Source of the DNA: Iphinoe sp. HA4291-MV1
Lineage (GTDB): Bacteria > Cyanobacteriota > Cyanobacteriia > Cyanobacteriales > Nostocaceae
Direction of reading: 5' to 3'
Assembly: GCA_019359415.1 (NCBI GenBank)
Contig: JAHHHH010000002.1
Span: 151,172-215,171, forward strand
Length of the DNA stretch: 64,000 nucleotides
Each line of letters starts with the position of its first letter. Within the stretch, counting starts at the first letter, position 1. Under the pieces are notes generated by a model. That model ran no database searches and was not told where the DNA came from. It saw only the letters and a list, made by a program, of their open reading frames with translations. Shown piece after piece: positions 16,003 to 19,922 of this stretch. Made by a program: the position numbers and the translations under genes.

Positions 16003-16883
16003 ATGAAAAATCCACTTGATTATATTCAAGAATATCCGCACCGCACAAAACAAATTCTGGGAATAACCAAGACCAATTTCGAGACTTGTTAGCACAAGCC
16101 GAAAAGCATCATAACGAACTTCAAGCTGAAATAGAACTTAATCACAGAAGAGGTGTGTTTGTGTTTATTTTACTTGAGACAGATGCCAACATTTGAGGTT
16201 TTAGGGTTACACTTTGGAATCTCAAAAACTGAGGCTAATGATACATTTCATTACTGGCTAAAAATATTACGGAGTATCTTGCCTGCTAGCCTGCTCGAAC
16301 AAGTTGAAAAACAGGACAGTGACTACGCGATTGCGCGGAGCGCACTGCCCTTCGGGCAATCGCGTTAGAATTATTGAAGGAGTTTAAGTTAATCGTGGAC
16401 AGTATGGAACAGCCACGCGAACGCCCTTCCGACAATCAGGAACAGAAAGAGTATTTTTCGGGTAATCAAAAACAGCACACATTTAAAAACCAATTTATTA
16501 TCTTACCAGAAGGAAAAGATATTGTCGATATAGAGGTAGGAGAAAAAGGACCAACGAGCGATATTAGCTTGTTTCGGGAGCAACAAGAAAAGTTTGAAGC
16601 CAACCAAATGTTTGAAGGAGATAAGGCATATCAAGGAGGAGAGAATATTACGACCCCCCACAAGAAGCCACGAAAAAGAGAGTTAACTGCAAACCAAAAA
16701 GCAGAAAACAAAGAGTTTTCCAGTCAACGCATCTTTGTTGAACATGTAATTAGACTCGTCAAAATTTTCCAGATTGCACGGCAAAGATTTTCACTTAATT
16801 CTCGAACTTATGAGGAGGTAATTCTTACCATTTGTGGATTGGTTAGGCTCAGAATTGGTGCGCTAATTTTGCCATCTTCATGA
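16003..16883 (+). pseudogene. broken IS5-type (DDE_Tnp_4) transposase
   Basis: Pieces of one transposase lie in different frames. MKNPLDYIQEYPHRTKQILGI (frame 1) is followed by DQFRDLLAQAEKHHNELQAEIELNHRR, then FYLRQMPTFEVLGLHFGISK, and finally DSMEQPRERPSDNQEQKEYF through FVEHVIRLVKIFQIARQRF to the C-terminus. There are at least one frameshift near 16060, an internal deletion near 16150, and a stop caused by a palindromic HIP-type repeat insertion at about 16325-16364. The catalytic order (D, D, E) is largely still readable. It is certainly inactive. It lies next to a second IS, in a region that looks like an insertion hot spot. Confidence 0.85.
16325..16364. repeat. palindromic HIP-type repeat inside the dead transposase
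   Basis: CGCGATTGC at the left and GCAATCGCG at the right flank a GC-rich core containing GCGCACTGCCCTTCGGG. Its removal would rejoin ..SDYAI with ELLKEFKLIVD, so the repeat was inserted into the transposase gene. Related pieces occur near 33640-33665 and at 58893-58935. Confidence 0.7.
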
Positions 16884-17080: not shown

Positions 17081-17308
17081 ATCCCACATTCCGCACTTCA
17101 ATAAGTAGCATGAAAAAACTACATTTTCGCTCAATTAAAAACTATTGTTTTTAACAATCAAGTCCCAATAAAAAATAAATTATACATACCAAAAATTCAG
17201 CTATTTTATTGTGTAGAAAAAGCTATTTAGACAGAAATATTGAAGTTTAATTTTTTAATCAGTCATGAAAACATAAGTATATCCAATAAGGAACTTTAGA
17301 TTTTAAAA

Positions 17309-19039
17309 CTAAGATAATAAATAATATTTCTGACAAGTAGTAGGTAGAAATTGTAATATGTAATAACGTGACTCTGTTAAGTTAAGAATTTGTTTAAACC
17401 CTTGTATAATCAGAAGATGAATCCCTTGAAAACATTGGAATATCCAGCGTAAAGTAGGGGATTCTGTTGGTTGATTCAGTTGGTTTTTAACTTTAGCTTT
17501 TTGGTGCTTCAATGACATTCTTAATTGTCTTTGCCCCAAATTATAAACGAAAAGACATAATGACATTAACATCATCATCGTCTCTACTCTTTCGGGATTC
17601 TTCACAAACAGACTATCAGCAAAAAATAATGGATCTTTGATAAATCTAAACCCTCTTTCTGTTGATTGCTGCTCCTTATATATTCTCAGGATTTCTCTTG
17701 GTTCTAACTTGGTGGTATCTAAAATATTGGTTGCTAGAATAAATCTGCCACAAGAGTTTTGTTGTTGTGTGATTAACTCCTGATTTTCTATTAATTTACC
17801 TCTAACTCGATAGACTGCTTTTTTCCCTTTATTTAACGTCTCGATAATTTCTAAGTCCGATATTTCATGATATTTTAATTTGGCTGCTAGTTCTTTAATT
17901 TTTAACTCAGCTAAAGATTGCTGTTCAAATTCTTCCTGTTCTAATCTAGCTACTTGTTTGCTAGTTTTTAGCAACTCTTCTTGGATTTTTTGGTTAAGTT
18001 TCTTTAAGTCTGCTTCTTTTCTCTCTGAACTTTCTACTAATAGCCATCTTTGTTCTATTCCCCCATAAGATACTTGTTCTTCTTGATAGCTATATCCTTT
18101 AATTTCACTGGCTTTCAGTTCTTCACTTGTGAATGCTTTTATGAAGTTTTTGGCTTTCTTAATCGATAAAGGTACTCGACTTATCCACTTCATATTTGAC
18201 ATTAATTGTAAATTACTCTCACTGTATAATGCACTGTCACGGGGTCTGACACGTAAGAAATGAGCGGAACCTTGTTTTTGTTGATCTGTGTTGTCATCTC
18301 GCGTACTCGAAGTATGAAGGTTCCGCTCATTTTTAGGGGACAATGCGTCAGCCACCATGATACTTTCAAAATCTATTTGTTTGGAATACTCTACTAGAAT
18401 GTGAGCGAATATCGCTTTGTCTGATTCATTTCCTGATGCTCCTCTAAAAAATAAGGGTATATCACCATCACTACTTACTATTAAATCTAATATACATTGT
18501 TTTAGATCGGGACGATGGTCACGAGAATATCCGTGTGTAATTATAATCGGATTTTCTCGACTCATTTCTAATTCTTTCTCTAGTGCAACTGGGCAATTTT
18601 TATATTCTCCATGTAAATGTAATGAGGTGGAATCCAAGTGGGAATATTTAGTTTCTATTCCATATTTTTTGACGACTTCTAAGGCAATTATTAGGAATAA
18701 TTCAGTTAATCCATATTTAGAGAGTTTATCCATGACTCTACCTATCTTGTCATCATTTAAATCTGATGCTTTTATCTCTACTCCTAGCAAATGTTCTACA
18801 GCTTTATCTTCAAAGAATTGAGAAAATAAATATAATGGTCTTGAGACAAAACCAAGTCCATTGAGAATGATTGCTTTGACTACAACTCCAGTATTCACTT
18901 TCTCTCTAGTATCTATTGAAAATATCTCATTAATTTTTTCCACTATTCCTGCCTCATCTATTATTCCTGCTATTATTCCTAAGTGATCTACGTTTTTACT
19001 CTCTAACTCTTTTTTTTGGTCATTCATATTTTCTAGCAT
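17309..19039 (-). CDS. IS1634-family transposase with in-frame 37-residue insertion
   Basis: This 576-residue protein has an N-terminal DUF4277-like part (LGIIAGIIDEAGIVEKINEIF, TGVVVKAIILNGLGFVSRPLY) and a DDE transposase core (YSHLDSTSLHLHGEY with the first Asp, then SGDIPLFFRGASGNESDK, MVAD, and RGFRFIKDPLFF near the third acidic position). Between MVAD (the Asp here is normally followed by SALYS) and SALYSE there are 37 extra residues, encoded by a 111-bp palindromic insertion (18236-18346). Without it the protein would be 539 residues, a normal size. The inserted segment sits next to a catalytic-region Asp and may inactivate the enzyme, but the frame is preserved throughout. Confidence 0.88.
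   Translation of the reverse strand: MLENMNDQKKELESKNVDHLGIIAGIIDEAGIVEKINEIFSIDTREKVNTGVVVKAIILNGLGFVSRPLYLFSQFFEDKAVEHLLGVEIKASDLNDDKIGRVMDKLSKYGLTELFLIIALEVVKKYGIETKYSHLDSTSLHLHGEYKNCPVALEKELEMSRENPIIITHGYSRDHRPDLKQCILDLIVSSDGDIPLFFRGASGNESDKAIFAHILVEYSKQIDFESIMVADALSPKNERNLHTSSTRDDNTDQQKQGSAHFLRVRPRDSALYSESNLQLMSNMKWISRVPLSIKKAKNFIKAFTSEELKASEIKGYSYQEEQVSYGGIEQRWLLVESSERKEADLKKLNQKIQEELLKTSKQVARLEQEEFEQQSLAELKIKELAAKLKYHEISDLEIIETLNKGKKAVYRVRGKLIENQELITQQQNSCGRFILATNILDTTKLEPREILRIYKEQQSTERGFRFIKDPLFFADSLFVKNPERVETMMMLMSLCLFVYNLGQRQLRMSLKHQKAKVKNQLNQPTESPTLRWIFQCFQGIHLLIIQGFKQILNLTESRYYILQFLPTTCQKYYLLS
18236..18346. mobile_element. 111-bp in-frame palindromic insertion (miniature element)
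   Basis: The insertion is bounded by GTCA at 18236-18239 and again at 18347-18350, a 4-bp target duplication. Inside is an inverted pair, AAATGAGCGGAACCTT (around 18259-18274) and AAGGTTCCGCTCATTT (around 18316-18332). Removing 111 bp restores the family motif VADSALYSE exactly. The length is divisible by three and it contains no stop in the transposase frame. The extreme ends are not inverted repeats of each other, so the element type is unclear. Confidence 0.75.
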
Positions 19040-19234
19040 TCTTATTTAACACAAACTCCAGATCTCATCTTGTCTCCTGATTTTATTGTCAATACCTTAC
19101 CAATTTCAGGTTGTTGGCATTTTTTAATATTCTCTATACTTGTTACTAAAAAAATATGTGCTTTCACTTAAGGATTTAATGCTGCTTTTTACACTCGTAT
19201 ATGTGTTACAAACTGAAGTGCGGAATGTGGGATA

Positions 19235-19922
19235 GAGGAGCGTGAAAAGCTTGATGGACTTCCTCAATAAAACCTTTAGAAATTTGGTGTCCCACCACTA
19301 AAGCTAAATGTTCGTAAAAGGGATCTTCTTGAAATTCTTGCTGGCGGTAGCGGTTATATTCCTTGAAATAAGGAATGGTGTACTTGCGTATCAATTTACC
19401 CAACTCAGGCATATCTAGATAAAATCGATGACGAGAAATACCTTTAGGATGATGACGCCAATCTGTGTGTTCGGGAACGTGACATAAGTGCCAGTATTCA
19501 CTCATACTCATTAGGTTGAACTCCAAAAATCCCAACTTCCCATCTGATGGCTCAACAACAATAGCAGCCCCAGCGTCCCCTAAGGTTAACCCGCCAAGCT
19601 TAGTGCGGAGTTCCTCCTTACTGGAAATTTTATGATAAACATCGCGCTTTTGTCCATCTTGCCAAGTGGCGATGACGCGCTTGGTTTCCTCAACCATCAC
19701 TTCTCCATAAGAAGTAATTATCTGTGTGTGGAAAGCCGGTTGAGCCAATTTGCGCTGTTGATGATAAAACTTCCCTTCACTGAGAAACAAGCCGTTACCT
19801 AGTACTAACTTGGAGTTATTACGCAAGAAATGACCTTTCCTCATAAAGACCCTATTTTGCTGAGAGAAAATTTTCTTGGTGTAAGATGTGAGCGCCCAAG
19901 GGGCGCGATTACACGCCCGCAA
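19235..19922 (-). pseudogene. P450 / KAS III chimeric gene remnant
   Basis: One open frame joins two unrelated fragments. Residues ~25-98 (19629-19922) are from the N-terminal region of a cytochrome P450 (LVLGNGLFLSEG, QRKLAQPAFH, YGEVMVEET, ATWQDGQ), lacking the heme-binding part. Residues ~99 onward (19235-19628) are from the middle of a 3-oxoacyl-ACP synthase III-like enzyme (LTLGDAGAAIVVEPSDG, then HLCHVPEHTDWRHHP). The frame is cut by the right inverted repeat of the IS1634 element. No start or RBS fits a real gene. It is probably the product of a deletion fusing two genes of a former secondary-metabolism locus, then the IS insertion. Confidence 0.75.

Follow-up and report, generated by a model that had tools for sequence, protein, structure and literature searches.

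Iphinoe sp. HA4291-MV1 carries, inside the transposase gene of an IS1634-family insertion sequence, a copy of an element family of Scytonemataceae-type cyanobacteria that is characterised by fixed, unequal ends and a covarying hairpin. The copy lies in the window, i.e., the whole stretch of 64,000 nucleotides that was analysed. Relatives without a copy at the corresponding site show that copies of this family are net insertions; the target is TGAC-like or a C-run, and 1-4 nt are duplicated depending on how the ends are read. Taken together, the observations are very probably explained by a non-autonomous palindromic family, similar to miniature inverted-repeat elements (MITEs), that is moved in trans, keeps its arms matched by copying and inserts without regard to the reading frame, the copy in the window being an in-frame survivor.

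The host insertion sequence occupies positions 17081..19233 on the minus strand and has the perfect 20-bp terminal inverted repeats that had been predicted for it (17081-17100 and 19214-19233). Its transposase ORF (17309..19039, minus strand), delimited by Pfam, ORF and alignment evidence, contains DUF4277 and DDE_Tnp_1 domains and stays open across the insert. The top plasmid tblastn matches of this transposase are named IS1634-family transposases, and these relatives, the DUF4277/DDE domains and the terminal inverted repeats are all features of IS1634. The ORF contains 111 extra nucleotides, which correspond to 37 codons free of stops. The 107-bp core of the insert (18240..18346) reads GCATTGTCCCC ... 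AGACCCCG on the minus strand and CGGGGTCT...GGGGACAATGC on the plus strand, and one 4-nt flank copy brings the net length to 111 nt. GTCA (TGAC on the minus strand) stands on either side of the core, at 18236..18239 beside the right end of the element and at 18347..18350 beside its left end, where the GAC may belong to the element. On the minus strand, the conserved left end GACGCATTGTCCCC spans 18336..18349 and the conserved right end ACGTGTCAGACCCCG spans 18240..18254. The hairpin arms, AAATGAGCGGAACCTT (18258..18273, plus strand) and AAGGTTCCGCTCATTT (18317..18332, plus strand), are the inverted pair of about 16 bp noticed in the original prediction; both are 16 nt long, with 100% complementarity. 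Within the window, this arm sequence is found in the two arms alone, where 0.03 occurrences are expected with up to two mismatches. The minus-strand RNA of the insert folds better than all 200 of its dinucleotide shuffles (z -3.7).

Alignment with seven homologues places the insert within the invariant motif V-[A/C]-D-SALY. The 37 residues are absent from all seven, and the closest plasmid match, a homologue from a Nostoc N6 plasmid, has exactly 111 gap columns at the insert. The proposal that an in-frame, stop-free segment interrupts a transposase that is continuous at this position in its relatives is thus borne out. Alternatively, the lineage of this transposase might possess the segment as a regular domain. 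Nothing was found in support of such a domain, and its probability is negligible, given that the residues are missing from 7/7 aligned homologues and that copies of the DNA turn up in unrelated genes.

The invariant Asp beside the insert is presumably the second catalytic acid, as judged from IS4-type DDE enzymes. Since the insert adjoins this residue, the host transposase is probably inactive. No further close copy of the host insertion sequence was seen in the same genome among the 40 of 77 first-pass candidates that were scored; apart from the insert, the matches in this set are two fragments, with 67% and 71% identity. Uninterrupted versions of the transposase are represented by the seven homologues. 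The suggestion that the host insertion sequence could still spread the insert is doubtful, with the invariant motif split beside the invariant Asp and no other close copy among the scored candidates. Two further ORFs lie close by in the window. The one at 16374-16883 encodes a DDE_Tnp_4 transposase of 169 aa, probably a fragment. The other (19206-19922) is overlapped by the end of the insertion sequence and has a weak N-terminal P450 match, below the curated cut-off; it resembles a fusion or a truncated gene.

The insert had been suspected to be a miniature mobile element, and its core does recur across the genome and the genus. A blastn search of its own genome returned 50 pieces at E ≤1, with the query's own place counted, and 13 pieces at 11 distinct places, again including the query's own, at E ≤1e-5. 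The exact left core GCATTGTCCCC is present 44 times in this genome and the exact right end ACGTGTNAGACCCC 24 times, while the reversed-pattern controls gave 0 in each case. For five of 30 left cores inspected in the same genome, the contexts look unrelated. A strict whole-copy pattern occurs in all eight genomes of the genus, with 4 to 33 copies per genome and 0 in controls. The same pattern is found in 94 stretches of the GTDB species genomes, and the 80 of these that were listed belong to Brasilonema, Scytonema, Fischerella muscicola, Nostocales HT-58-2 and one Nostocales MAG. The window insert matches two plasmid records, from Brasilonema and Scytonema, and the strict pattern has 0 matches in viral contigs. 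The collected set comprises 116 copies with 112 distinct sequences.

Not all ends are paired at the usual distance. Six end pairs lie 157-370 nt apart and, by their ends alone, are taken to be nested copies. Among 19 right ends without an exact left partner, 14 have a left-like motif with up to three mismatches somewhere in the stretch and five have none. An ORF for a 464-aa TnpB near the end of contig C125 of the same genome (L002, 3-1394) contains three element copies in frame, which we read, judging from the ends, as one copy followed by a copy nested inside a copy. Other repeats are also found in contact with the element. At two loci of this genome (L005 on C99 and L006 on C31), the element sits inside a different palindromic repeat with inverted ends GGAAAAATCGCCCC, and in L043, L039, L082 and L047 other short hairpins, e.g., CTTAGCGCAGCGGCTCCCCTAGGGAGCTTCC, are inserted in its stem or loop. 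A further repeat, GACGCATTAATCGACAC..., adjoins several copies (L028, L035 and L048), and its first eight bases are those of the left end.

A typical copy runs from GACGCATTGTCCCC through the stem, a loop of about 40 nt and the other arm to [A/T]CGTGTNAGACCCC, often followed by G. The stem has 15-18 pairs in 95 of the 112 distinct copies if one mismatch is allowed, and there are 93 distinct arms. Covariation was scored on 28 distinct copies of length 103, with 18 pairs and 502 cells in total. In this set 97.2% of the cells are paired, compared with 37-65% in slid controls, and stem changes are two-sided in 74 cells and one-sided in 8. Out of 500 shuffles, none reached four of the five hairpin measures, and eight reached the fifth (further pair types). 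The covariation is almost exclusively Watson-Crick, with few G-U pairs. More G-U intermediates would be expected if the stem were under selection as RNA, and the pattern thus suggests that the arms are corrected against each other at the DNA level.

The loop core occurs in two orientations, A in 30 and B in 41 of the 112 distinct copies, with the remaining 41 unassigned. The likeness of loop A to the reverse complement of B is 0.69, against 0.40 to B read directly; because the class of a loop was set by one 8-nt motif, the likeness of A to reversed B is partly by construction. With this proviso, A and the reverse complement of B seem to form a single population. An integron attC site was also considered, as GTTAGAC fits its R' box. 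This candidate was rejected: the base at issue varies among the 112 distinct copies (A 60, T 48, C 3, G 1), and GTTAGAC finds no pairing partner in the left end.

Empty sites were sought using joined flanks as queries, for 38 copies and for 10 C-run copies. Aligned relatives without the copy were recovered for 13 of the former and nine of the latter. A scripted search yielded an empty relative for 50 of 113 queried copies, from which two same-locus matches were excluded; 29 of the remaining 48, not each inspected by eye, are at ≥80% identity. In the commonest class, TGAC or a near sequence (e.g., TTAC) is present once in the empty site and twice in the filled one. In the C-run copies L089, L110, L142, L160, L168 and L173, the empty site has neither GAC nor the extra CC, and GAC is missing also from the empty relatives of L132 and L126, while those of L124, L125 and others have GAC or a similar sequence (TNAC). 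Flanks were scored for 101 copies, after 15 of the 116 had been dropped for their other right ends. GAC flanks the element on the left in 85 and on the right in 28. The base preceding the left GAC tracks the one that immediately follows the right end (T/T in 50 and C/C in 24). We read this as an element that starts with GAC and prefers TGAC as its target, with one or two bases of the target duplicated. A small TCATT/TCATC class, in which about four bases are duplicated and GAC is absent, counts against the GAC start. As for the GTCA duplication that had been claimed for the window copy, GTCA does stand on both flanks and a 4-bp duplication is a possible reading, but the empty sites of several other copies lack the left GAC. 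L124 and L152 interrupt related DDE_5 transposases at an identical position; their stems differ and their loops are in opposite orientation, one copy being in frame and the other frameshifting.

Another possibility is that the family consists of palindrome-associated transposable elements (PATEs) moved by an IS200/IS605-type Y1 transposase. In that case the element would insert 3' of a TGAC target without duplication, and its right end would carry a TGAC of its own. The target of ISDra2 is TTGAC, which counts in favour of this idea, as do the hairpin, the unequal ends, the non-autonomous character and the left-flank GAC in 85/101 copies, a TGAC-like site; moreover, Y1 transposases are encoded in all eight genomes of the genus. 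However, the GAC that a PATE needs in its empty site is missing at L126 and L132 and at the six C-run loci named above, and the extra duplicated bases do not fit a clean Y1 insertion. The T/T and C/C correspondence across the two ends also counts against it. In addition, none of the 30 Y1 loci examined, out of 62 Y1 matches, is flanked on both sides by element ends; a complete short copy is found near two of the 30 and a lone left end near three. An origin as a Y1-mobilised PATE is therefore unlikely.

Neither the inspection of Y1 loci nor the end-pairing searches uncovered a mobilising enzyme or an autonomous copy. Pairing exact ends by coordinates in four genomes (the same genome, G003, G005 and G007) likewise showed no autonomous parent. 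A 1.8-kb end-to-end pair in G005 (contig C321) was examined as a candidate parent and set aside, since its 388-aa ORF is antisense and was read as an insertion sequence inside the element. The family resembles MITEs in its small size, high copy number, short duplications with empty sites and presumed mobilisation in trans. Classical MITEs are bounded by terminal inverted repeats and have a parent insertion sequence; here, by contrast, the outer ends are unequal and non-complementary (GACGCATTGTCCCC and [A/T]CGTGTNAGACCCC), the inverted repeats are internal, and the four genomes yielded no parent.

The effect on genes was assessed for 104 copies flanked by 300 nt on each side, with an ORF of at least 150 aa judged on the joined flanks. 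An ORF is interrupted by 36 of these copies, 20 of which are in frame and open. Coding status is supported by Pfam (E ≤0.001) for 22 of the 36 sites. Twelve of the 22 are in frame and open, a share that is probably inflated, because broken genes decay and are then more easily missed; the other ten are broken, and there the Pfam match rests on one flank piece. The open sites include, besides the window IS1634, four TnpB genes, an IscB-like gene, four further DDE transposases, a C5 DNA methylase and an nSTAND1/CHAT protein, so related copies are indeed found in frame in other genes, a check that had been proposed for the insert. Of the ten broken sites, one is in a gene for a RecD2-like helicase and the other nine are in genes for transposases or TnpB. 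When copies from 68 non-genic sites were drawn at random into the same 22 sites, 1.86 open in-frame cases were expected compared to the 12 observed, and 12 or more were reached in 0/20000 draws. Lengths are a multiple of three in 17/22 coding copies and in 27/68 non-genic ones (Fisher p 0.003).

This excess holds for smaller sets. The inserts of L117 and L151 are identical and probably represent one event; without one of them, 11/21 are open and in frame against 1.71 expected. If three weaker sites are also removed (L202, below the Pfam curated cut-off, and L091 and L106, whose position close to the 5' end of a stop-to-stop ORF may put them outside the gene), the figures are 11/18 against 1.57, with 0/20000 draws. 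Taking coding status from the empty relative instead gives 9/19 against 1.65 expected (0/20000), and net lengths divisible by three in 13/19 versus 11/31. In this relative-based test, the four of 19 rows with a gap beside the join (L012, L109, L124 and L152) were counted as not in frame, and L149 shares one relative with L178, as does L117 with L151. Outside the 22 sites, the ORFs of L049, L105 and L107, without a Pfam match, may be spurious, and L047 (class 3) was scored out of frame but was probably trimmed one base short. Since genes for transposases, TnpB or IscB make up 19 of the 22 coding sites, the evidence for tolerance in other kinds of genes is thin.

In principle, the element could itself be adapted for translation, its length and frames having evolved to stay open so that it acts as a protein-level insertion module, as the original prediction supposed. 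Net lengths of 108 and 111 are common, the 17/22 coding copies with multiples of three are in keeping with it, and phase 0 gives recurrent peptides (ALSPKN...FLRVRPRD). Yet over 90 inserts only 104 of 540 frames are open (19%), compared with 16.8% in mononucleotide shuffles of 68; the non-genic copies, too, are divisible by three in 27/68 cases; genes use both strands and several phases; and 10/22 Pfam-supported sites are broken. Adaptation of this kind is thus improbable. Because the frames of the element are hardly more open than shuffled ones, survival after insertion best accounts for the in-frame cases.

The enrichment of open copies bears on another alternative as well, in which the 37 residues are absent from the protein, owing to ribosome bypass or splicing of the RNA hairpin, and the transposase works. 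The insert does place a stable hairpin at an invariant motif, and reading continues in frame. Inserts removed in this way need not be open, though, and open ones are enriched; the few G-U pairs argue against selection at the RNA level; and Rfam has nothing around the insert at the gathering score. Bypass or splicing is therefore very improbable. Rfam matches to a plastid psbJ hairpin are weak, far below the cut-offs, and were taken as chance.

Under the preferred explanation, survival of frame-blind insertions, copies would be moved in trans by an enzyme recognising both ends. Copying between the arms at the DNA level, through hairpin extrusion or template switching, would keep them matched while they drift, and the same process may invert the loop. 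Insertion would take no account of the reading frame; open copies with a length that is a multiple of three would survive in genes as ~36-37 extra residues, as do the palindromic elements of Rickettsia, and others would break the gene. The window copy would then be such a survivor, and the transposase around it has probably lost its activity. It is tempting to go further and propose an undescribed class of mobile hairpins with a single-stranded or cruciform DNA intermediate, in which a putative enzyme recognises the two fixed, unequal ends, any cycle may turn the hairpin round and copy one arm anew from the other, and in-frame survivors contribute new peptides, sometimes from three copies per ORF. 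This extension is speculative and rather unlikely.

Among known systems, the closest kind are the Rickettsia palindromic elements (RPEs), described in the available parts of the literature as dispersed palindromes of ~105-150 bp that lie in frame within protein genes (PMC2229807, PMC10969869). The cyanobacterial element seems to work like them and may be regarded as similar in kind: it is a repeated palindromic element of similar size (~100-150 bp), dispersed in the genome and inserted in frame and free of stops in protein genes above expectation. It differs, as far as those accounts go, in its cyanobacterial host, its fixed, non-inverted ends, its two loop orientations, its TGAC or C-run targets and its location, predominantly in genes for transposases and TnpB and not in metabolic ones.

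Other families are more distant. The cyanobacterial MITEs named in the part of the literature available, Nezha and those of Anabaena PCC 7120 (PMC10969869), are alike in kind. The CGTC-tagged palindromic repeats, whose description notes that RPEs of Rickettsia conorii end in CGTC, have no known dedicated transposase; their stems are 8-9 bp and their loops mostly 4-5 nt, and Cyanobacteria are not among the phyla listed in the portion of that paper available (Di Nocera 2013, PMC3733652). The left end of our element likewise closes with CGTC on the other strand, and a dedicated transposase is known for neither; by those partial descriptions, its stems of 15-18 pairs in 95/112 copies, its loops of ~40 nt and its cyanobacterial hosts set it apart. 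Nematomorpha mitochondria have long perfect inverted repeats in protein-coding genes, according to the part of the report available (PMC6649704). Those repeats share the location in protein genes but are mitochondrial. The literature matches listed for the topic and for the end and loop strings contain no description of the present family, many subscription papers lying outside that search. A paper from 2008 reportedly deals with very small mobile repeats of cyanobacteria.

RPEs have been the standing example of palindromic selfish DNA that is read inside bacterial proteins, and the cyanobacteria add a second lineage. The scarcity of G-U pairs and the inversion of the loop point to DNA-level upkeep of the match within the hairpin. 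With cyanobacterial hosts, some of them in culture, and many copy-free relatives, the movement of such elements, their tolerance by genes and the making of new protein parts become testable.
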